Below, piece after piece: positions 13,246 through 63,894 of a DNA stretch of 64,000 nucleotides. A program made the translations under genes and the position numbers. The stretch covers positions 18,869,513 through 18,933,512 of the forward strand of contig CM057147.1 of assembly GCA_029964075.1 (NCBI GenBank), given 5' to 3'. How positions within the stretch are numbered: the first letter of the stretch is position 1; each line of letters starts with the position of its first letter. This DNA is from Patiria pectinifera (lineage: Eukaryota > Echinodermata > Asteroidea > Valvatida > Asterinidae). The notes beneath the pieces were generated by a model. That model ran no database searches. It had not been told where the DNA came from and was given only the letters and a program-made list of their open reading frames with translations.

Positions 13246-16200
13246 TCTTTTGGCCTACAGTACATTATTATTCACAACAAGAAGGGTATGCACATGTATG
13301 TGTACATGTAAACCATGTACCTGTACTCGATGTTGGTAAGGCTTTTGATAAAAAGAGCAGTTGAAAATGACCGCGCGGGTTGATTACTAATTGGGATTTT
13401 GAAAAGTTGGCAGCTATATGTTTGTGGTATGCGTTTGCTGGAATTCGCAGTCTCCCCCGGTGTAAAACCTCAAAAGAAACCGACTGTTCTGGACAAAATG
13501 TCAGTGCTGACATTTGTTTTAAAAAGTTTGAGCAATATTCTCCATAGAAAGCCGTGGAAATTTGGGTCTTAGCGGGGTTTTTTTTAATGTGTCATTTTTG
13601 TGGTCTTTAGCTTTTACATGGGATAATCAGTGTATCAAATATTCTCGATATTGGATTTCTTATATATCGATAATTGAACATTCCTGATATCGACGGTGCT
13701 TAGACTAGACTCTAAAGTTGATCCTAGCAATTGTAACAATTGCGTCTTTTGACGCAGTGGTTCCTGTTTCAGACATCAAACTGTATATGTTCCTATTTCA
13801 AATCTTCAAAAAAACATTGTACAGCGCATCATCTTTTATCAGCTGTTCATAAAATTGTTCCTTCATATGCTTTTATGCTTTCCTCTCAAAAGCTGTGCAC
13901 ATTATTTTTCAATTTACTTGAAAATCGATAGGGATGTACACTGTTTTTAGACAAGTGTGGCATGTTACTGTCTTTGACAGGGTTTCTAGCTAAAATACCC
14001 TGGAGGGTTAGGGCTATAATGAGTTTGAACTGTCAACTGTGTTACCCTTGGAACTTTGTTGAGATTTTTTTGTTCTGAATTTGTTGTGTTCCTCACATGC
14101 ACATCCATATTAACTTGTGATTTTACATGTGTTATAACATTTGACTTGTTTATTCCAACTTGACATGGAAATTTTCTGTGGTGTGGGGAAGTTTACTGTT
14201 GCATGAGCTGATAGCATTTGCATAATTCATGATTGTAAATTCATAGCATGGTGAAATGCTATGACATAGTGCATGCTAGATGTGAATGGATGTTAAAATC
14301 ACGGTAAATTCCTATGGCATTGGGAATTGCTATGGTGTAATGAATCCTATAGCCCGGTGGATTCCTTTGGTAAGGGCACTTCTAGTAACATGGAGGATTC
14401 TAGTGGTATATGTAGCCCCTTGAAATCCAATGGCGTGATGAATTCCTATAGCATGGCAAATTCCTGTGACTTTGGAAATTCTTATCATGTGATGAGTTTC
14501 TATACTATAGGGATTTCTGATTCGACCGGGAATTCCTATACCATGGGGAATTCCTTTACCATAGGATTATCTGTACACTAGGAAATTCTTATACCATAGG
14601 GAATTCTTATACCATAGGGAATTCTTATACCATAGGGAATCCTTAAAGCATAGGGAATCCCTGTAATATGGGGATTCCCTGTACCATAGGGAATCCATGC
14701 ACCATTGGGAATCCCTGTACCATATAGAATCCCTGAACTAGGGGGAATCCCTGTACCATAGGGAATCCCTGTACCATAGGGAATTCCTGTACCATTGGGA
14801 ATCGCTGTATCATAGGGAATCCCTGTACCATACAAAATCCCTGTACCATAGGGAATCCATGCTCTATAGGGAATCCCTGTACCATAGGGAATTCCTGTAC
14901 CATTGGGAATCGCCGTATCATAGGGAATCCCTGTACCATACAAAATCCCTGTACCATAGGGAATCCATGCTCTATAGGGAATCCCTGTACTATAGGGAAT
15001 CACTGAACCATAGGGAATTCCTGCACCATAGGGATTTCCCATACCATAGGGATTTCAGTGTCTTAGTGAATTCCTATAGCATGACAAATTCCTGTTAACT
15101 AAATGTAGTTAATTTCTGTTATACGTATGTTGAATTTCCCTGTCCTGGTGAATCGTGGCTTCCTTTTTCTCGCTAGTTTCCTACTCTATACAGCACTTCA
15201 TTTTTGGCTTCCTTAATTCCTGCATCAAAAGCCTGGCAAATTCCCATTGCACCATTTCATTCCTTTTTTATGTGAAAGTTGTCCATTGTTTTGTGCAATC
15301 AATCCTAATAGCCATGTTATAATTTGTTTTAACCGCTAACCAAGTACTAACATCTAACACTGTCTCTCTCTCCACGAACTCTTCCATTTTGCTGCACAGG
15401 CGCCACCCATGTCCCCTTTTGGCGCCGGCCAGCCTTTTGTGATGTCCCCACAGGTCTGTATAGAGCCCCAAAACTTACATAATTGAAAAATTCGGACTTA
15501 TACCAGTTTTGGTCGAAAATTGAAAAATGTGGTGATGACATGGAAAAGAGCAGACAAGTGCATCAAGATTTTGTTGATTATTTATATAGATTTTAATTTC
15601 AATTTTTTTTGCCCTAATTGAGACTGAGCATCAGCCATATTCCCAGGGAACAGGATCGGTCTAAAGAATATGATCTCAATGAGCAGATGTAAAACACAGA
15701 TGATTCTGTTAGGACCAATATTCTTGGACATGCTCGCTTTGGTATCTACTTCATTTGGCCCAGCTTGACAAAACCTACATGTACAACAAAATTCTAAAAA
15801 ATAAAGGGAGGGTGGTCAGAAAATTCAAATCTGTGTCCCCATATGTTGGATCAAAGATTCAAAATACAGACTTGGACAAACTAGTTTTTACCATGTTTCT
15901 GTAAATGGCTGCCATTTCTTAACTTGAGCTTTACTTTTAACGCCGTTTTCACCATTTACCACCAAGATCTTGTAGTTTTGGAATATCTAAAAACACTTTC
16001 AACGTGTCTCCCCAAATTTGAGATATAACACTATAACACTCCACACTTTTACTAAATGTATCTCTTTACCAGAGTTGACCAAATGGCATTTCATCAATCC
16101 AGTAATGATCATGTGCTGATTTCCGTTTGCAGTGCTCTAAAACTAACTGCTTTTGTTTTATCTCACATTGCTTCTCTCCATTGCTGCTTACTGACCACTA

Positions 16201-39991: not shown

Positions 39992-40281
39992 GACTGAGGC
40001 TCGAACCTCAGTGTAATATAGCTCTGTTCACAAGACTCTGAGGCTCGAACCTCAGTGCAATATAGCTCTGTTCACAAGACTCTGAGGCTCGAACCTCAGT
40101 GCAATATAGCTCTGTTCACAAGACTCTGAGGCTCGAACCTCAATGCAATATAGCTCTGTTCACAAGACTGAGGCTCGAACCTTAGTGCAATACAGCTCTG
40201 TTCACAAGGCTCATGAGGCTCGAACCTCAGTGCAATATAGTTTTGTTCACAAAACTCTGAGGCCCGAACCTCAGTGCAATA
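39992..40281 (+). repeat. 44-bp tandem repeat x7 with hairpin core in DHRS12 intron 1
   Basis: Seven copies of a ~44-bp unit: CTGAGGCTCGAACCTCAG (a perfect short hairpin TGAGG/CCTCA), then TGCAATATAGCTCTG and TTCACAAGACT. Units range from 40 to 46 bp. Confidence 0.85.
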
Positions 40282-40517
40282 TCTGAAATCACGAGAGAAA
40301 TACAAAATTAGGAAAGAATATCAAGAAGACAAAATGTATTTCTTTTTATTCTAGCTCACGATCCTTCTGAGTATATCTGAAATGTTCTGCCTAAAGGATC
40401 ACTGAAAACAATAAAGAAATATATCGTGATAATATAGGAAACGCGACATATCTCATGATCATGGTTTGAGTGCGGGTTTTATTTTTATACTGTGTTTTAG
40501 ACTTAAGTTGTTGAGAC

Positions 40518-43500
40518 ATGAAGGATTTCAATAATCCAGAATTCGGCTTCCCAGGAGATGAATGCTTCAGGTGAGTTTCAGTTGATTACAATTATACCAA
40601 GGCTATATTTATTTTTGGCGATTGTAAAAAGAGAAAGCAAACATTAAGAATTTACCGGTCATAATTTTACTACACCGGGTTGGTAATTGTGAATTTGATT
40701 ATACAAAAAGAAAAGAACTCTCTAAATTCCAAAGAGTGAAATTAAGGACTAAACGTTTTAGAGTGAAAATCACTCTCATTTTCGATTGACAAAAAAAAAA
40801 CGAAAAATGAACCACTTCAGTCGAAGCTCGAGTGGAACCTCGATCTTTACGATTGAAGAAATTTCACTCTAAAACGGCTAGTCCCTAGTTTCCGACTGTG
40901 GGAGTGAATCTTCACTCGAACGGAGTAAATTTTCACTCTTTAGAATTTAAAGAGAACATTTTCTCCTCTTCTTAATTTAAGAACTCACATTTGTTGGCTT
41001 TCAAAAAGTCGTTTAGCCATTTCTGACTTTGATTCATCCGAGGTCTGAATTTGTACTTTCCTTTTTTCATACTTTCTTTCAAGGGTCGGGTTCGCGGAGG
41101 CTTCCAAGAGTTTTGACCCTGCAGCATTAGACGTAGACCTCACGGGAAAAGCATACATGGTGACTGGAGCCAATACGGGGATCGGGAAAAGCATCACCTT
41201 GGAACTCGCAAAAAGAGGTTTAAACCTGACCAAAAAAATGGCGTGCTTTTCATGCTTTCAGATTTTGTTGTTATTTAGGTCTTTGGCCTGTTGATGTTGG
41301 ACGTTAGCTCCAAGGCTCGGGCTAAGTTATATTTATAACACCGATTGCATTTCTTTTAAGGCGGTCGAGTCCACATGTTGACTTTGAACGAGGATCAGGC
41401 GACGCGTACGGAGATTGTGACTAGCAGCGGCAACGAGGTAGGATAACAGTTCTTGTTGATATCCATAACTTTAAGGAAGACTAATGGAGATCAATTGTAA
41501 TGCAGTATACCGGAGCATTATATATTGCGCACGTATCTACCAACAATAGGTACTCAAGGCGCTGGTAAATATGTCTATGTATTATGTCTAGGCAGGTAAG
41601 TGAAGTTTTATGAGAAATACGAGACCCATTATGTTGCACCTTTAACACCAGCAGTAGTATAGTACGTCGGGTGCCCGGTAGAAGGGCATATGAGCGTTAT
41701 GACGCAAAAATCATTTTCAAGAAAATTGCATTGAAAGGTTCCATTGTTCCCCTGCGCGCATTTTGAAATAAATGTTTAAATTTCATTAAAACGGATGCAG
41801 TTTTCTGCATATGCCCTTTTGCTGGGAACATTTTGGTCATTACGCGCTATTGCATAATATGCCCTTCTGCCGGGCACATGACGACTGTAGTAGTTTATGG
41901 GTTACAAAATGCTGGTAGCCTAGTGTCTGCGGTTGTGCGCATTATAACTACCATCTAAAATTGAAGGTCTACCAAGGAGTTACCTTCAACTGAAAGAGGC
42001 GGACGAAGAAGAACCCGCACAAAACCAAAGGGTGATGGGCACATCGCTGATGATGTGGTCTGGGCTTGCCAGGGCACTGTCTAACGACGTGAGAGAGAGA
42101 GAGAGAGAGAGATGGTAAGAGTATACCGTGGCTAGTACATACATACATTTTGTAGTTTTTAAGATTTACAATTACAGAAAGTTTGTAATGAAGATCAGTA
42201 TTTATAAGGTCGTTGAATGAGCCGTTTTCATGTTTGATCGTCACTGATAAAACTACATTCCCATTTTTGACATGTCGTTCAAAAACGGTACAGGTTTGAA
42301 ATATCATAAACTCGGTGACAAAAACAAATTGGCACGGGGGGAAAAACGCATCGGATATACGGCAAAGACCAAAGTAAGGATTTGCATCGCAGACTGATCT
42401 CCATGTTTAAAACTCTGGAAAGCTCATAGGCTATATATCGGACCTTAATCATGCTTCCACCATTTTAGTCATATTCCCTGTATCCAATAACAGTACTGAA
42501 TGATAATGTTTTTGTGCAAAAAGGAACCAGACTGTTTTTCCATCCAGCCTCGCTTTGGTTACTTTGATTTTGAGTGGGAAAAATCAAGATGGCCGCAACA
42601 TGATAATGATCTATTGCGAGCTGTACACGTACACTTTAAGCCAGGGGCGGCGGTACGCTTTTCAAACTCGGGGCAACACCAAAAAGGGGCACTTGCTCAG
42701 AAAAAGGGGCACCTTCTGTCTGTGTAAACGTGGAGGAAAAGAATATGGCCCCGTTCATTTAAACCTATATGACGAGGAACAATAATATTATGAATACGTT
42801 GTCCATATCTATATATATTTCTTTTACCTGGTCAGGCGCGGATCCAGAGGGGGAAAAATTCTCATACAAATTCCTAAAAAAATAAGTCCCCCCCCCCTGT
42901 GACACCCCCCACAAATTATACTGGTGTAATGTCCGCCTGTTCCAAATACGGTACACCACTCTGTAATGAGTGTTAATAATCGTCGAATTTGAACAGCACC
43001 CCCTATTGAAATCGGAACCAGAGGGACACTGTTGCCATTGATGGCCAATTCAGTGACCATTTTTTTTGATTCGCGTGAAGAGTACTTTTTTAGGGCCGGT
43101 TTTTCCATCTTGAGAGGGGGCACAAATTATTTTAATGTTGCGAGCTGGGCACTAATTGTGCTTTCGCTCGAGGGGTAGTTTTCCATCGTGAGAAGTTATC
43201 GCGAGAGGAGCACTATTATTTTTGATGGCCTCTTTTCCATCTCGAGAGGGCCACAATTTTTGCGAGAGGGGTATTTGTGCTTTCGAGGGGTAGCTTTCTA
43301 TCTCGAGAAGGTGCACAATCTTGTTAATTTGAGAGGGGTACTCGTGTTTTTGAGGGGCCGCAGTTTTCCATGCGCGATCATAATGCTTTCATACGTGTGC
43401 GTTTGAGGGGCAGTTTTGTTTTCATCTCGAGGGGGCACATTTATAACCGCGAGAGGGGCACTTTTGTTGGCCTGGGAAAATCCGGGGGTGGGGGTGGGCA

Positions 43501-46500
43501 AGTGACACCCCCCCCCCCCAAGTTCCGCCGTCCGTGCTTGAATCTACGCGATGGTTCCGATGATGCTTTTTATTCTTTAATATTATATATACGATGGGAG
43601 TGGTTAACAGTGGTTCCCGTACCATTATTAAACAATTTTTTTTTCTAACAGAATTTTTTATGAAATAATACTTAAGTCAAATAGTCATTTTTACAAATAT
43701 TAATTTAATAAAAATGCAAAGATTTGGGTTAAATTGGTATAGCTTTTTATACAATTCCATTGTTACGGGAGTGGTAATATGGCGGGCGGTTATTCCACTT
43801 CTAGCAGCAATGGGTTATCTGGATACGTTTTTTTAAGAGTTGGGATCCACCCGGCTTTTACAGTTTTTGTTTGTTTTGCTATTATTGACCACAGTAAAGC
43901 AGAGGTGTGATTTACAAATACCGTTTTATTCCTTGTAGTAATTATGTCCTTTGTATTCATAGAATGTTCACCTCCACGTGTTAGACTTGTCTCAGCCCAG
44001 ACGCGTGCACGACTTCGCCCGGAAGTTTGCGGAGACTTGGAAGACACTGGATGTACTGGTGAGTTTCCGATTTTTCGCTTGGAAATCTGAGGTTGTTTCG
44101 ATATAGGACAGGGGTGTGAAATCTCAGCTTTAAAGCTGATTTCAGCTTTTTTTGTTTTGGATTTCAGCTTTTTTGCCTCACTTGCTGTGTACAAAAGTAT
44201 AGGAGATTTCCAAAGTTAAGCTTTTTTGCACCTTTTCAAGCTGTTTTCAGCTATTTTTATTCGGTGGTCACTCACACCCCTGATAGGAGTACCTTGCTCT
44301 TGCAATTTCATTGAGTGGACAAAATGTGTCGAATGTGCAGAAATGATTTTGGCAAAAGCTACAACGGCTCATTCTAAGCACTTCAACTTTATTCCAACAG
44401 TTTACGCATGAGCTTTTTAGAAAGGACATACGCACACCAATGAATCGCCAAAGTTCCAAGAAATCTTTCGGATAAAAAGTCAACTTCCTGTAGGCCCTAC
44501 ATGAATCAATTTTTGTTCGTCTTGTTTATACCTTAAGTAGAGGACTGGCTGTAAAAAGAAAATAATTGTGATAAGAAATAATTGTTTTCTTTTCATGTTT
44601 TGTTATACCTATATTGTAATTGTGCATCTAGGTAAATTCCGTGTGTTTTTCGTCGATTGGACGTAGCAAATAAATGATAATAATTTCAAGAAAGTTTGGA
44701 TCCCAGACATAATTATCAGATCGTGGTTTGGTTAATCGTGTACTTTACTGAAGACCTGACTCTAAAAACAAAATCAATTATTTTTTAGGTAAAATAAATG
44801 CTTCTGTAAACATGCGGGGAAAACAATGTCTGTTTCTTATGGTATGACTCTAGAATACAGAAACAATACGTGTTGGGAAGTACCTCACTTGCCGTGTTCA
44901 CATGCAATTTTGTTTAACACCACAGACTGAATGGTGACACGTAAAGGTCTCCCCATAGGTTATACGGTTTCACTGCTAAATAGTGTGCTATGACGTCACA
45001 CATTTTGTGACGAATCGTGGTTCATTCCTGATTTCAATAATAATGCAGGATTGTTTTACCCTTTTACGCAGGTGAACTGCGCAGCGTGTGTACTGCCCGA
45101 GCGAAGGCTAACAGACGATGGGTATGAAACGAATTATGCCATGAACACCATGGGCGTGTACATTCTCTCGACAACACTGATACCACTGCTCCGTACAACC
45201 CCTGGATCCAGAGTTGTAAGTAGGAGTGGCTTGTGCGGTATTGGGATTTGGATTTTAAGAGTCCACGGCAGGCCACACAAAAATATCACGGTATTCAGTA
45301 TTATGTGATTTGCTGGACAGACTATTTTGTCATCAAAATAAATAAGACACGTTGTGTTAGGGAAACTGCAAACAGGCAGCATGATGAGCAGAACTATAAC
45401 CTTGCGTGATGACTTGCAAGCACAATTTTTACCTTTATATCAAGCTACCTTGACCATAAGGAATGTTAACCAATTTTCCATATACATGTATACACTGTGC
45501 ATCTTGCCAAGTCGTGTCTGTCACGTTTTTGTTGTACACCTCTGGCCACATTCAAGAGGGAAAATCGCGGTATTGATGCATGTCCATAGGTCGTGGGTAT
45601 TTCGGTATTTTGACAACATTATTCGGTATTACATTGTTCGGCATCAAAAGAATATTGTCAATATATGCAGTATTATTGAAAGAAATAGTCCAAATCTCGG
45701 TATCAGTTCTGTAGCTTTTTCACAATGCAGCACGCTACAGACTGAATTCAGAATTACTTCTGATGGGCATTCTGACGGCTTGCTATTGCAGGGTGTGCTT
45801 TATTTAAATGAATTCTCAATTTTGGTGGTATCACATCTAGACCGGGCCTATAGAAAAGGGAGGTTTACAGCATTATTCGGGTATCTACCTTGAAACACGT
45901 ACCATACCAAAGCCAAAGTGTTGCAATTAGGCCTGTGTTGTTTTTTGTATACCAATTTTACTCCTAGATAATAGTATCTACTCAAGGCGTGTTTACGGAA
46001 AGGCTTCGTCTGGAAAGCCTTGATGATCTCAGACAAGAAAAGTTGGAGCCATTCGACGGACACAAAGTCTATGCTCAAAGTAAAGTGAGTCGATATGGTA
46101 TACCAGAAAGAGAAGATAGTCTATGCTCAGAGTAAAGTAAGTCTATATGGTATACCAGAAAGAGAAGATAGTCTATGCTCAGAGTAAAGTAAGTCTATAT
46201 GGTATACCAGAAAGAGAAGATAGTCTATGTTCAGAGTAAAGTAAGTCTATATGGTATACCAGAAAGAGAAGATAGTCTATGTTCAGAGCAAAGTAAGTCT
46301 ATATGGTATACCAGAAAGAGAAGATAGTCTATGCTCAGAGTAAAGTAAGTCTATATGGTATACCAGAAAGAGAAGATAGTCTATGCTCAGAGCCTCAGAG
46401 TAAAGTAAGGCTATATGGTATACCAGAAAGAGAAGATAGTCGATGTTCAGAGTAAAGTAAGTCTATATGGTATACCAGAAAGAGAAGATAGTCTATGCTC

Positions 46501-48632
46501 AGAGCCTCAGAGTAAAGTAAGTCTATATGGTATACCAGAAAGAGAAGATAGTCTATGCTCAGAGTAAAGTAAGTCTATATGGTATACCAGAAAGAGAAGA
46601 TAGTCTATGTTCAGAGTAAAGTAAGTCTCTATGGTATACCAGAAAGAGAAGATAGTCTATGTTCAGAGTAAAGTAAGTCTCTATGGTATACCAGAAAGAC
46701 AAGATAGTCTATGCTCAGAGTAAAGTAAGTCTGCTACTAGAAAGAGAAGATAATTAGAACCAAAACAGTGCCAATGTAGATACATTTTATCGAATGTCAT
46801 ACCACGGTAAAAAAAAAAAAATCCCAAATGTAATACAGAGGCTACTTCGATATCTTATTAACCATTTTCGGGGAGTACTTTCGCAATTGTCAAAGATTCA
46901 GTCAATGAAAAATTACCAAAACCTGTAGCGGTCTACCCAAGCCTGAACTTGTCGACATGCAGAATAATATGCATTTTGGAAAGAAATAGTTATCCTTAAT
47001 ACAAACGTTGCGATCCATTTTTAACAGCGACCATGTAGGGTTAAACCACATTACACCAAATTCATTGTTTGAATCTCTTGTCAATACCTCACCAAGAAGA
47101 AAGCATGACATTATATAAGTAAACTCATCAGCCAGGGAGGTTTTCATTTGGATCCAGTGGGAACCTCCCTGACCACTCCCTGAAAGTGTGTAATAATTTG
47201 CACCCAAAAAAAGTTATTTCCACAATTCGTATGCACATTTTGTCACTTTGCTCGGACCCACCGCCCCGAAACAGGGCGCTTGGAAGGGCTAATTTCCTCG
47301 AGCTTTCATTGGACAGAATTTGTATGAACAATAACAGGGGTCAACCTTTCCGCCTGCACATAACGTGCGCACAAAATGTACGTCCATTGGATGAGGCAGT
47401 AAGCTGCCCACAATGCTTTGCGCGCCTGCGGTTTTTTTTCACACAAAAATTGTGAGGGAGATTAGCCCTTCCCAGCGCCCTAATTTAGGGCGGTGGGTAC
47501 GAGACTTTGAGACGCTTGGTGGCAGCAAACACAACGGTCCTCCTCAATTGTTACATCATTTTGAGCATGCGCACGTTGACTTGAACATGACAAACAAAAT
47601 GAAAAGGATCGTTGTGACCAAGTGTCTCGAAGTCTCGAAGTCTGGATGTTCACCATTTTCACTTGATCCTCCGAAAACAGCGTCAGCAGCTCATCATGCT
47701 GACCACGTGGGCTCGCACGCACCCAGCGATCCACTTCGCCGCAATGCATCCTGGGATAGTCGACACGCCCCTTTTGCAGACCTACCTGCCACCTCACCTG
47801 TACGAACAGGCAAAAAAGAAAGATCGGCTGAGGACGCCGGGCGAGGGGGCTGATACAGTCTTGTGGCTGGCTATCGCAGATGCCGCTGTTCAAGAAGAGA
47901 GTGGTCAGTTTTATTTGGGTAAGTGTTATTGCCACTTAGAGAAGATAAACACTAGAGGGCAAGTTTGCGAAAAAAAATTGTTGACCATTGGTTAACCATA
48001 GTTCGACTAAAGTTAGCCCGAACTCTGTCTAGTCGACGGTGGTTGACTATGCTAGTCGACTATTTGGAACCAGCCTACTGGGGCTGGTTGCAGCGCTGGT
48101 AACCAATAGCCACGTGCATTCATAACGTACAGCAGGGAACCAGGACCCAGAAGTTTGGCGATGACATTTTGACCAGCGTTTGACTAGAGACGTTCACACG
48201 TTGCTATTAGTGCGCAGACGTAAGGTACGTCACAAATCAACAACTAGTCGACTGATGGTCCTTGCCCGAACGTGGCCTTAGCTGCGAATCAGCTGGAGGA
48301 AAATAAAACTCTCCAAGGTGTCTGAGAAACATGTCAAAGTTTTATATGAATTCACCAACATTCACTTTGGCCTAAGTTAATTTGGTGGTTGTTTCATTGG
48401 CGTGGACTGTGCAAAGATTGCCAGCCTGAGAAACTGTTGCAGAGATTAAGGTACAGGTTTTCGGGGTAGATGCCATTAATGCTTATAATTCTATAACCTC
48501 AGATTCTATTTTGTTCTAGATCGAAAATCTATACCCTGTCACAAATACGAGTTGACCCGATCGACGGAGGCCGAGGAACAACAGTTGATGGAAAAATTAG
48601 AAGAACTAGCTGCCGACATCACTTCTGCCTAG
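40518..48632 (+). CDS. DHRS12: Dehydrogenase/reductase SDR family member 12
   Basis: An NAD(P)-dependent short-chain dehydrogenase with unknown physiological substrate. Coding exons: 40518-40570, 41084-41217, 41361-41437, 43963-44058, 45072-45215, 45968-46084, 47681-47918, 48520-48632; 323 residues, all junctions in phase. The Rossmann motif TGANTGIG is at residues 45-52, where the family consensus is TGxxxGIG. The catalytic triad is visible as Ser172 (VST), Tyr203 and Lys207 (YAQSK). HPGIVDTP, GADTVLWLA and the C-terminal E-rich helix (EEQQLMEKLEELA) match DHRS12 of other animals. Odd points: the usual NNAG motif reads NCAA (122-125). The N terminus is divergent, with no clear membrane segment. 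The exon ending in the catalytic YAQSK is followed by a 52-bp tandem array copied from its own end. Length agrees with the family (about 320). Confidence 0.92.
40718..40960. mobile_element. Inverted-repeat MITE in DHRS12 intron
   Basis: CTCTCTAAATTCCAAAGAGTG ends are mirrored by CACTCTTTAGAATTTAAAGAG, and GTTTTAGAGTGAAA by TTTCACTCTAAAAC further in; about 240 bp, non-coding. Confidence 0.65.
41084..41217 (+). CDS. DHRS12: DHRS12 exon 2 (cofactor-binding TGxxxGIG)
   Basis: 134 bp from CTTTCAAG to AGAG|GTTTAA. It encodes VDLTGKAYMVTGANTGIGKS and then a leucine-rich helix ending LAKRG. The dinucleotide-binding beta-alpha turn is complete. Confidence 0.88.
41665..41885. mobile_element. Inverted-repeat MITE (GTGCCCGG ends) in DHRS12 intron
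   Basis: GTCGGGTGCCCGGTAGAAGG and the reverse (GGGCATATTATGC ... CCTTCTGCCGGGCAC) bound about 220 bp. Confidence 0.65.
42088..42112 (+). repeat. GA dinucleotide microsatellite
   Basis: About twelve GA units in a DHRS12 intron. Confidence 0.8.
42640..43560. repeat. Repeat-rich block: decayed elements plus GAGAGGGGCAC minisatellite
   Basis: CAGGGGCGGCGG (42,642) and CAGGCGCGGATCC (42,836) look like left ends of hAT-type elements, but matching right ends were not found. From about 43,100 to 43,460 the words TCGAGAGGGGCAC, TTTTCCATC and GCGAGAGGGG recur irregularly. C-rich runs occur at 42,888 and 43,508. No gene is visible. Confidence 0.5.
44109..44282. mobile_element. Small hAT-like MITE (CAGGGGTGTGA ends)
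   Basis: CAGGGGTGTGA and TCACACCCCTG are inverted ends, and ATAGGA flanks both sides (44103-44108, 44283-44288). The interior repeats the word TTTCAGCTTTTTT. Confidence 0.65.
45968..46084 (+). CDS. DHRS12: DHRS12 exon 6 (catalytic Ser, Tyr, Lys)
   Basis: 117 bp from TACTCCTAG to AGTAAA|GTGAGT. It holds IIVSTQG (catalytic Ser172) and, at the very end, GHKVYAQSK with Tyr203 and Lys207. The last ~20 bp and the donor are the seed of the array that follows. Confidence 0.9.
46062..46735 (+). repeat. 52-bp tandem array of exon end plus 5' splice site
   Basis: About twelve units of ~52 bp: GTCTATGCTCAGAGTAAA, then GTAAGTCTATATGGTATACC and AGAAAGAGAAGATA. The first unit is the real exon end (GTCTATGCTCAAAGTAAA|GTGAGT). 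Each later unit repeats it with GTAAGT, a closer match to the donor consensus. Two units carry an extra GAGCCTCA. The last unit is truncated near 46,735. Confidence 0.92.
47273..47481. mobile_element. Inverted-repeat MITE (AGGGCGCTTGGAAGGGCTAA)
   Basis: AGGGCGCTTGGAAGGGCTAA and the inverse TTAGCCCTTCCCAGCGCCCT bound about 210 bp in the intron before DHRS12 exon 7. Confidence 0.7.
47501..47643. mobile_element. Short inverted-repeat element before DHRS12 exon 7
   Basis: GAGACTTTGAGACGCTTGGT with CACAACGGTCC is mirrored by GGATCGTTGTGACCAAG and TCTCGAAGTCTC. The right end is about 40 bp from the exon 7 acceptor. A related fragment (CTGCCACCAAGCGTTTCGA) is at about 53,986. Confidence 0.6.
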
Positions 48633-59950: not shown

Positions 59951-62730
59951 GGATTTCCACTCCCCGCTTATTGGGGAGTAGATGAAGAACGTCAAGAACA
60001 ATGATGGCGGACTTCCCACAACTTGCGTTAATGTTTTGTGCATGATATAATTGAAAACGCTCGTTCAGTGCTGGAGTAGTAAGGCGAAATTATTTTTTGA
60101 TTGTACGTGAACACAGAAAGGGGGCCGTGTCTGTGCAAAATAAAACAACAAAGCTGTTCCGGTATTTGAATTATTTTCATAAGATCATTAGTTTTTACCT
60201 TTCTGTTTTTATTCGGCGTTTAAATATGGCGGCTGTCATCTTATTAGTTGCGCGGCCAGCTCCACGTACTCCCCATGCACTGGAGTGTTTGTGATGGGCA
60301 AGCCGAGAACACTGTTCGCGGATCAGTAGAGAACGGGGTTTGCAATAAGCCCCGTGATTCCGGACAGCCGGGTTACTTATCCGAGTGGCAAATCCATGAA
60401 TTTTTTTTCAAGGTTTGGGTATAGTTGAGGCGTTGTAGACAACAAACTATGGAACACAACGGATTCGTGTTCATGCATGAGTCACGTGATTGCGCCATGT
60501 AATTTCTGGAAGGAGTAGTGTTTTGAGTTAAAAAAAAAAACAAAATCAGTTTTTTTACCCTAGTGACCCCATGATGACCTTTGACCCCAGTTTGGTCATG
60601 TGACATATTTTTGGGGCTTGGCTGCTGATACTTTTGACAAAGTTTGGTTGATGATCGGTCAAAATATGTAGGAGCAATAGACAATGTCGACGTTTGTTAC
60701 TAACTAACTAACTAACCAACTAACGTGCGGACCGTCTAACGGAGAGACATGATTAGAAGAGCTGCTACCCGCAGCTATAAAAAAAAAAAAAAAAGCACCG
60801 TGGCATTTAGTTAGATAATGTGTTGAATGGGGAGGTAGACATGTTGAAGATGTTGGAGTATAAATATCATGTTTCATGATTAAGTAAATCATATCAATAA
60901 TTTTCTTTATATAGGCCTATTCGTTAAAATTACAACTACCCGATGCCAAAATGTACTCAAGCATAGCCTGGGCATCAGCCGAACTTCGCAAGGTTTCGGC
61001 AGTGCCCATAGGAAGTGATGTTTCCAAGCATTGTGACTTGGAATAGATCATTGGAGATGATGGAAATAAATTTGAAATGATTAATGTACACCCGGGGAAC
61101 AACATAATAATGATGCAGGCCTACCATTTTGTGCACTAACACATCCACAATTACTCCCGTTTCAATGCAATGTCCAAAGCGACAGCGAATCTTTGGACAG
61201 CTTAACTCACTTGGAAAACGAGGTTTTCTGGCCTTCGCTTTAAAATTAATGGCACTCTGTCATCCTTGAATGCGGAGATGCAAATAAAGTATCAATGGCA
61301 AGCTAATGATTCATCCTTTAAGACGAAACCACTTTGACAGTGTTCAAGTTCATAACTTTTACATACAAATCCATTATTTTTGGATTACGTTTTTGATACA
61401 CCCTGTACAGGCCAAAGGTTTGTGACCCGCAGAGTAAAAAGGAGATGATATTAACTCTCGGCCAAAACGTCGAAGAAACAAGTTCCAGTCTTAAAAAAAT
61501 GACCACATACATACATGTATACCTGCATAATGGTCCGGACCACACACGGATCTTAAATGTGGGTGTGGCCAACGCGAGACGTTGCCTTATTGATGACCAA
61601 ATGAAAAGTAACTTTCGTTATTCCTTAGAGACATAACCACAGATGTTTCGTGCCTAGCTTGCCTAATTGCAATGGACTTGTATTAAGGAACTGAGCGTGG
61701 GTAGATAATGGGGAAAAGTGATCCTTGAAATCCTGAAGATCTATCGTAATTGATGGCTATCTCGGATTGAAGGTGAACACTTGCAAACAAAAAAAATAAT
61801 CCCATCGCGAATGCAATATCTGGAAAACACCTGCACTTAAATATTTTACTTAACATTGTGTTTTCTCCTCTTTAATTTCAAGGAGTCTTTGCCGAGGACT
61901 ACTGTTGCCACGGTCACCAAATCCTATCTTTCGGTCCATCGCACGGAGATCGCGTGACGGTAGCAGAGGACGTGTAATTGTGTTTAGGAGCTTCTGCTAC
62001 GTGCCCCTTCTTTCGAGGGTCAGATGAGAGTAATTGAGTGAACAAACGGTCAAATTTTAAACCGAGTTTGAGATAAACAAGTTCGGCCTGTATATGTTGA
62101 ACTTCGTCATTAGACTCTGAAGTTCTCTGTTCTACGACCTTTGTTACCCCGGAAGTCTCGCTGCTCGCTAAAATTGTCTGAGAACTCTAGCAGACAATGG
62201 CATCAGCTCTGGCCTCGATTACAGTCAGCATCCCGCAGTCGGTTTTCCAGTGGCTATACCAAAGATTTCACTGTGTGACGCTTTCACTAGAAGCTTGAAC
62301 ACGTCAAGAAAGATTTCACAGGCCTTTAATAAGGAAAGCGTGCATGGTTCATTCCGTAAGGCAAACAAAGACGAGGTTTGCTTAATAGAGCTGGATCTGA
62401 AAGTCTCAGTTTATCCCGAGTGACTCAGTCGGTCAGTCGGCCCATGTCAGTCAGTCAGTAAGTCAGAGACTCACATTTAGAGGACAATCGGCCTCGGGTA
62501 CAGCAAACAAACAAAAATTCAAACGTTCTTTATCTTGTGACGAAAACAATTTATGGACAACACATTGTCATTGCCAGAAAGTTACCAAAAAGTCAAGCGT
62601 CACACTTGAAGCGATTGTATCACTTTCATATTCGATGTACCTGAACTTGCGTTCAGACGAACACTGAGCAAAGGGCCACCGAAGCAAATTCTTCACTTAA
62701 CCTCTTTCTTCAATTGAGTTGCAGTTAGTT

Positions 62731-63894
62731 ATGGAAAATCAACCGACGATCTACGTGACTGACTCTGTCACGTCAGGCCAGCCGTTGCTGCAGAGTTTTA
62801 CCGCATCGAGCACTGCAACAGCTCTCGGTGGCAAAGTTGACTTCGGGTTGCTCTTCTCTGTCATCCTGAGCTCCATGGGCATGCTCGGCAACGCTCTGGT
62901 TTGCTTTGTCATGTTGCGCCACAGGAAGGTGTTCCACTCACCGACCAACAAGCTGATCATCCACCAGTCCTTTGTTGACCTCGTGGCTTCCACCATCTTT
63001 TTTGTCCGTAGATTTGCGCTCGCGGTACCCCCAATCCCTGACGGTTTCATTGGGGGCTTTTACTGCCGTGTCTGGTGGTCCGAGTGGCCAATGTACGGTA
63101 TGTTCGTCACCTCTACCTACAATCTGGTGGCCATATCTACGGAGCGTTACGTGGCTACCTGCCATCCCATTAAGCATCGTAACGCTTTCTCCCCGTTCCG
63201 TCTGAAACTCGTCATGGCCGCCGCCTGGCTCGCGGGCTGGCTCCCGGCTGCCCACCTCACTTTGATCTGCTACTACGACGCCGAGGTGCGCGACTGCGGC
63301 GCCTCCTGGCCAAACTTTGAGGTGCAGGCCGTGGCCGGCACCCTCATCTTCGTTCACGAGATCATCGTCCCTATCACAGTCATGTTCTTCGCTTACTCCC
63401 GGATAATCTGGTCCCTCCGTCAACGCTCCAGAGTTCGAGAGGGAGAGAACAACGACGCTGCCAGGGAGATGTTCTCCAAAGCCAATCGCAACGTGACCAT
63501 CACCCTGGTGGTGGTCGCTGCCTTCTTCGCCATCTGTTGGCTTCCAACTGACATTTACTACCTTCTCTACAATCTCCACGTACACAACAACTTCGTGGAG
63601 CACCCGGTCTACCAGGTGGTTTCGGTCATTGTCGTGCTCAACCTGTGCATCAACCCTCTCATTTACTGTTTCGCTTACGATCGTTTTCGTAAGAAACTCA
63701 AGCAGGAGTTTTGCGGGAACCGCTGGCTTGCCCGCCGGGTCGGCATTGCTGAGGACGGTACAAGCAATGACACAGGTACCCACATTACCGTAGCTGCGGG
63801 TCGCGGAGCAACTGCCGGGAATGACAAGACTCTCACCACCACTGTTCACAAGGCTGGCTGCTCCTCTCAGACTGAAACGGTGGTCGCTAGCTAA
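62731..63894 (+). CDS. Rhodopsin-class (class A) G protein-coupled receptor, orphan
   Basis: An uninterrupted 387-residue frame with seven membrane segments at the cell surface. Landmarks: GN with N54 in TM1, HQSFVDLVAS with D83 in TM2, C112 before TM3 and C189 in loop 2 (disulphide pair), E138-R139-Y140 at the end of TM3, W166 in TM4, P214 in TM5, CWLP at 269-272 in TM6 and NPLIY at 308-312 in TM7, then an amphipathic FRKKLKQEF helix and Cys328 as a possible palmitoylation site. The Ser/Thr-rich tail suits receptor-kinase and arrestin regulation. The N terminus is short (about 35 residues) and has no N-x-S/T site. Codon use is GC-rich compared with its surroundings. The general look is that of peptide-type receptors in expanded invertebrate deuterostome families, but ligand and subfamily cannot be assigned. 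I chose the ATG at 62,731; TTGCAG just before it could be a splice acceptor. Confidence 0.9.
   Translation: MENQPTIYVTDSVTSGQPLLQSFTASSTATALGGKVDFGLLFSVILSSMGMLGNALVCFVMLRHRKVFHSPTNKLIIHQSFVDLVASTIFFVRRFALAVPPIPDGFIGGFYCRVWWSEWPMYGMFVTSTYNLVAISTERYVATCHPIKHRNAFSPFRLKLVMAAAWLAGWLPAAHLTLICYYDAEVRDCGASWPNFEVQAVAGTLIFVHEIIVPITVMFFAYSRIIWSLRQRSRVREGENNDAAREMFSKANRNVTITLVVVAAFFAICWLPTDIYYLLYNLHVHNNFVEHPVYQVVSVIVVLNLCINPLIYCFAYDRFRKKLKQEFCGNRWLARRVGIAEDGTSNDTGTHITVAAGRGATAGNDKTLTTTVHKAGCSSQTETVVAS

Follow-up and report, generated by a model that had tools for sequence, protein, structure and literature searches.

The window analysed here, a stretch of 64,000 nucleotides from the starfish Patiria pectinifera (contig CM057147.1, positions 18,869,513 to 18,933,512), carries on its plus strand a gene that the initial annotation, made from the letters alone, had named as a DHRS12-like SDR. 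This identity is borne out: a tblastn search with human DHRS12 gave seven plus-strand matches, ordered as in the gene and spread over 41079-48611 (E 4e-20 to 1.2), the resulting model of eight exons with GT-AG introns joins into an open frame of 323 aa that Pfam adh_short matches at E 6.9e-21, and a search of the sequences of solved structures gave, at E up to 1e-10, two SDR-type relatives. The first coding exon, with a putative ATG (40518-40570), is placed by frame alone, through an in-frame join to exon 2, and has no match by homology. Exon 2 (41084-41217; tblastn E 3.6e-10, frame and splice sites) encodes the cofactor-binding motif TGANTGIG, exon 3 (41361-41437) follows from frame and splice sites with a tblastn E of only 1.2, and exon 4 (43963-44058) from the frame and splice model with E 0.023. 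The gene model further comprises exon 5 (45072-45215; E 2e-12), exon 6 (45968-46084; E 7.5e-4), which ends in phase 0 with VYAQSK and thus with the YxxxK catalytic motif, exon 7 (47681-47918; E 3.9e-20), which follows the acceptor AG at 47679-47680 and encodes RQQLIMLTTWA and the MHPG stretch, and exon 8 with the stop codon (48520-48632; E 0.049). TGxxxGxG, YxxxK and NNAG are motifs of SDRs; the first two occur in the DHRS12-like CDS as TGANTGIG and YAQSK, together with MHPG, whereas exon 5 reads NCAA in place of NNAG. The donor of exon 2 is very weak (GAG/GTTTAA, the slash marking the splice junction; matrix score -4.69, 41217-41223).

Two further tandem arrays and a second gene were seen in the same window. 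TRF reports a 44-bp array of 6.6 copies (39994-40282), which lies about 240 bp before the exon with the putative ATG, and an 18-bp array of 29 copies (14528-15052) has long open frames on both strands, with one weak proline-rich-type Pfam match below the cut-off. One long open frame at 62701-63894 encodes a rhodopsin-family GPCR (7tm_1, E 2.6e-34). In the assembly, contigs C1-C22 measure 15 to 55 Mb and together make up about 579 of 613.5 Mb, and C23-C28 measure 16-41 kb. When the assembly was searched with a degenerate pattern modelled on S1, a neuropeptide of starfish described as GFNSALMFamide (PMC3594158), there was one match, and none for the reversed control; the frame reads ERRGFNSALMFGKRLHSALPFGKRGYHNALPFGKR, and SALMFamide-type peptides neighbour the match in frame, which we take as the sign of a starfish genome. 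A COX1 search had no match, and a search for the GFP family, a check for amphioxus run without a positive control, came back empty.

The border between exon 6 and intron 6 of the DHRS12-like gene forms the first unit of a 52-bp tandem array. A script split the plus strand between 46066 and 46751 into 13 units, which start at 46066, 46118, 46170, 46222, 46274, 46326, 46378, 46438, 46490, 46550, 46602, 46654 and 46706; those at 46378 and 46490 are 60 bp long, each through an 8-bp insertion, and the last is degenerate and ends near 46751. The split and the alignment of the units agree with TRF, which reports 46066-46732 at period 52 with 12.5 copies, 92% matches and a score of 1092, far above chance. 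Unit 1 (46066-46117) contains the genuine exon/intron boundary at 46084/46085, and joins 19 bp of exon (AGTCTATGCTCAAAGTAAA, coding for the final residues of VYAQSK) to 33 bp of intron, as expected from the earlier proposal that the array was seeded by an exon end plus its donor. Beyond this boundary lie 12 copies, and 13 GT donors stand in register. The initial annotation had counted about twelve copies at a 52-bp period, with which both TRF and the split concur; it had put the end of the array at 46740 rather than near 46751, and its period does not hold for the two 60-bp units. When positions 46051-46200 were used for a DNA search of the 613.5-Mb assembly, in which one candidate region was scored, all six matches fell within this array, a lower bound. 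The array is thus confirmed as real.

The genuine 5' splice site, AAA/GTGAGT with its GTGAGT at 46085-46090, is fixed by the frame and by homology to the phase-0 exon ends of two paralogues. The 12 decoy donors, located between 46137 and 46730 from the unit split and translation, have their GTs at 46137, 46189, 46241, 46293, 46345, 46405, 46457, 46517, 46569, 46621, 46673 and 46725. All of them keep AAA/GTAAG, and 11 read AAA/GTAAGT, not every copy as first described: that at 46405 reads AAA/GTAAGG. A better match of the decoys to consensus had also been pointed out, which holds to the extent of a single base, A for G at +3. It does not make them a row of stronger decoys: on a donor matrix of human frequencies, they score 5.12 bits against 5.00 for the genuine site (3.92 for the copy at 46405), and pairing of positions +1 to +6 with U1, computed for unmodified bases and leaving out the 46405 copy, gives -5.3 kcal/mol for a decoy and -5.4 kcal/mol for the genuine donor. 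Among five U1 loci, three contain ACTTACCTG; in the other two, both minus-strand matches, it was not found in the orientation read. The scores of decoys and genuine donor are near-equal. The genuine donor is itself weak, with A at -1, so that by sequence alone it has no advantage over the decoys.

What the choice of donor would do to the protein follows from the frame. From the genuine donor exon 6 measures 117 nt, against 169-757 nt from the decoys, and translation of all 12 decoy products gives the same result: 16 added codons and a stop, or 223 aa instead of 323. The stop is the TAA of GAG TAA at 46133-46135 on the plus strand, which a retained intron meets as well, in agreement with the truncation that the initial annotation had predicted. 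A stop well upstream of an exon-exon junction leads to nonsense-mediated decay, and because the junction of exons 7 and 8 is well downstream of 46133-46135, decoy transcripts would be expected to be degraded.

The assembly contains two paralogues of the gene, one on contig C16, with NNAG and VYAQNK, which by eye is nearer to human DHRS12 than the array-bearing gene, and one on C10. Each terminates its homologous exon at the codon of the lysine, likewise in phase 0 (AACAAG/GTTGGT on C16, ACCAAG/GTTTTC on C10), and neither has an array at this border; the array is thus not common to these paralogues. At some distance from the border, about 200 bp into its intron, the C10 paralogue has a 55-bp repeat in two copies.

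Something of how the array grew is preserved in its units. No substitutions separate units 2, 3, 6, 9 and 10, and from these unit 1 differs at three positions (a synonymous CAA/CAG difference, the base at +3 and one further base of the intron), unit 12 at three, and unit 13 at three plus a gap. Summed over all other units, distances are largest at the edges (50 and 48 for units 1 and 13), followed by unit 12 with 39; the contrast between centre and edges is modest, because three substitutions set unit 12 apart from the common unit, just as many as for unit 1. Flanks and unit ends have at most a base or so in common, which indicates that the first duplication needed little homology. This duplication was probably a single tandem copying of 52 bp, made up of the 19 bp at the end of exon 6 and the 33 bp that open intron 6, after which unequal exchange or slippage would have amplified and homogenised the array to 13 units.

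Arrays of similar build occur at other places in the genome. We searched the assembly for exact donor-like 8-mers repeated three times in tandem, for which raw counts refer to overlapping triples and not to loci, and judged by eye whether an array began at an exon end, taken as a frame open from an AG into the first unit with a donor in place. Mostly by eye, an apparent exon-end start was found at nine of the 20 donor-motif array loci inspected, including the array described above (eight of 19 others). All five loci of AAGTAAGT lie at apparent exon ends, on C8 (C8:2930120), C15 (C15:22633582), C18 (C18:18993035), C21 (C21:10104890) and, with the array in the DHRS12-like gene, C19. The same holds for both inspected loci of AGGTGAGT (C10:7260392 and C1:15615129) among the matches listed, 100 of 253; outside these two, the matches listed all belong to a dispersed 22-bp repeat and were left out. 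The tandem repeat in question, AGGTGAGTAACAATTAATAGCT, occurs on many contigs (e.g., C11:5764459) and has a donor-like GTGAGT in each unit. Of 15 clusters of AAGTGAGT, 12 were inspected, leaving out C7:13111466, C7:20121197 and C19:13394670, which have one dispersed sequence in common: two start at apparent exon ends by eye (C20:17781499 and C629:15520, the latter at an SH2 exon), two more start about 50 bp after a donor, and at eight none was seen. The single locus of AGGTAAGT is not a donor array. At C1, C20 and C629 the unit includes just the last two or three exon bases.

Beside the DHRS12-like gene, good independent support for an exon at the border exists at two of these loci only, where the C10 exon matches NUP188 (E 1.1e-6) and the C629 exon matches SH2 (E 0.00013 and E 3.9e-6). 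An amphiphysin-like locus has a weak match in its upstream exon (E 0.056), and a PDZ-like locus has a weak one (E 0.04) when joined across the array, the exon alone being without a match and the joined exon without a PDB match. The C8 exon has no supporting match, the C21 exon has weak matches below the cut-off only and none in PDB, the C1 exon matches nothing in Pfam and has in PDB a single weak match taken as chance (E 0.0086), and the C20 exon has no Pfam match. The two arrays with donor-like motifs that start some 50 bp beyond a donor follow a myosin-head exon (C18:21028917; E 2.5e-8) and an exon that by eye is GTPase-like, without a Pfam match (C3:625143). At the AGGTAAGT locus (C5:16778742-16778921), a 21-bp array, pyrimidine-rich on the strand of the gene, adjoins the 3' splice site of a dynactin exon of the DCTN1 type (Pfam Dynactin, E 9e-7).

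These counts have to be read against reversed motifs. Raw matches for motif and reversed motif number 6 and 59 for AGGTAAGT, 32 and 201 for AAGTAAGT, 253 and 75 for AGGTGAGT, where the dispersed repeat dominates, and 43 and 35 for AAGTGAGT; since the reversed controls are commoner for two of the four motifs and about equal for one, donor-like arrays are not in general excess. As a rough base rate, AAGTAAGT occurs seven times in 148,016 bases, donor or not. Three single-locus arrays of reversed motifs were inspected, among the matches listed (100 of 201), and those on C1 and C10 have no exon at the border by eye. The third, a 60-bp array on the minus strand (C3:1332900-1334176), has units with an acceptor-like TTGACAG and runs into a possible exon whose peptide has no Pfam match; judging from these features, it may be an acceptor-side boundary array. 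With two of four motifs rarer than their reversed controls, preferential birth of arrays at donors is not claimed.

We consider it likely that the array is a minisatellite of the kind known in amphioxus as a mirage, born by tandem duplication, homogenised by repeat turnover, and crossed by a spliceosome that mainly uses the genuine donor. The first donor, at 46085, would be preferred because it yields the shortest exon 6 and because the decoys are no stronger, in line with exon definition; the array would then be spliced out within the 1,596-nt intron and be close to neutral, and any use of a decoy would lead through the 223-aa truncated frame to decay. With the first donor in use, the array is most likely tolerated, and it is probably harmless. 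Against this, a run of near-equal donors can shift splicing in mini-gene experiments towards the sites closer to the 3' splice site. The precedents diverge: that amphioxus mirages are reported to splice normally favours splicing that ignores the decoys, whereas human IFI6, in which downstream repeat units are used as donors, points the opposite way and makes decoy use possible.

If decoys were used by a fraction of transcripts, which would then be degraded, copy number could set the amount of enzyme, and the array would act as a splicing rheostat. The early stop is shared by all 12 decoys, which are about as strong as the genuine site, copy number of amphioxus mirages is described as unstable (PMC3087553), and IFI6 repeat units are reported to serve as donors (PMC4526556); but amphioxus mirages are also reported without disturbance of splicing (PMC3087553, PMC3902484), and the bare borders of the C16 and C10 paralogues argue against a control element that the family has long conserved, so that we regard a rheostat as unlikely. 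That the decoys instead serve to make a functional short isoform, whose 223 aa would retain both TGANTGIG and YAQSK and hence the cofactor site and the catalytic Tyr/Lys, is very improbable: exons 7 and 8 would be lost, including the MHPG stretch, which completes the SDR fold, the 16-aa tail is derived from the repeat, and the stop should trigger decay.

Even less credence is due to a ladder of micro-exons, in which the CAG/AGTAAA/GTAAG of most units would supply a 6-nt exon that adds Ser-Lys (YAQSK-SK-RQQ). The insertion would be neutral to the frame, the motif occurs in 11 of 12 copies, and the genuine exon has CAA rather than CAG at that point; yet pyrimidines take up 6-9 of the 15 positions before the CAG, compared with 8-13 of 15 for the gene model's seven acceptors, and the units would be separated by introns of about 46 nt. 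Collapse or expansion of copies by the assembler has a precedent in one globin mirage reported as misassembled in the amphioxus draft genome (PMC3087553). Such an artefact is highly unlikely for the present array, whose units differ by substitutions and two 8-bp insertions, whose length of about 690 bp is short relative to long reads, and whose structure has counterparts at other loci of the same assembly.

The array provides a natural test of how a spliceosome chooses among 13 near-identical, near-equal donors of which the first alone gives an intact protein. The roughly nine loci at apparent exon ends, among those inspected in one assembly, suggest that mirages exist in an echinoderm, and the new element appears to be that the anatomy recurs at other genes of the starfish. 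This makes it possible to ask if boundary minisatellites date far back in deuterostomes or emerge anywhere that tandem duplication and polymorphism run high. It is doubtful, if worth stating, that donor-multiplying minisatellites at exon ends form a recurrent, unreported class in starfish, extending mirages beyond cephalochordates, and that in some genes, this one included, unstable copy number is a heritable dial on productive splicing; if so, the dial would work through the decay of every decoy product. Our literature search, which covered few subscription papers and is weak evidence of absence, found no boundary minisatellite in a starfish or other echinoderm.

The initial annotation knew of no described case of such a minisatellite, a claim that fails in view of amphioxus mirages (PMC3087553, PMC3902484), human IFI6 (PMC4526556) and boundary minisatellites in human duplicated genes (PMC2812944). 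The last, which are described as lying at exon-intron boundaries and able to alter splicing, resemble the starfish array in both position and potential effect, but were found through comparison of paralogues in segmental duplications, in an account that stresses formation of novel introns and not donor-only arrays. Likewise, intron gain through tandem duplication of AGGT sites, as reported in PMC4974935 and PMC3443670, multiplies splice signals by the same means; here the boundary pre-existed and a new intron is not evident.

In IFI6 as in the starfish gene, a repeat that follows an exon supplies a series of splice donors. The IFI6 isoforms made from repeat donors are longer and in-frame, whereas every predicted decoy product here meets an early stop, all 12 ending at 223 aa. 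Two downstream repeat units of IFI6 (6-16, G1P3) are described as used donors from which isoforms result (PMC4526556), and Turri et al. (1995) is cited as the source for its multiple-donor minisatellite in PMC4526556 and PMC2572611.

The closest likeness is to amphioxus mirages, with which the starfish array has in common a first unit at the genuine exon-intron boundary, splice signals in many copies, and a unit size of 52 or 60 bp compared with 10-72 bp in Adh3. Retinol dehydrogenase is another SDR. The references on amphioxus loci in the PMC3902484/PMC3087553 group include, by its title, a paper on a retinol dehydrogenase gene. Mirages are defined there as minisatellites that span exon-intron boundaries, and are described from Adh3 and the globins BflGb6 and BflGb9 (PMC3087553) as well as from PGBD5 and troponin C (PMC3902484), with regular splicing reported as undisturbed in both papers. 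The homogenised centre and diverged edges reported for the BflGb6 mirage (PMC3087553) are likewise present, in modest form, in the starfish array. The hosts differ, being cephalochordates there and a starfish here, and copy-number and somatic polymorphism were demonstrated in amphioxus, while the starfish array is known from one assembly. Its kind is thus already known, and the array is a good example of a boundary minisatellite rather than the first, extending mirages taxonomically to what seems to be a new phylum.
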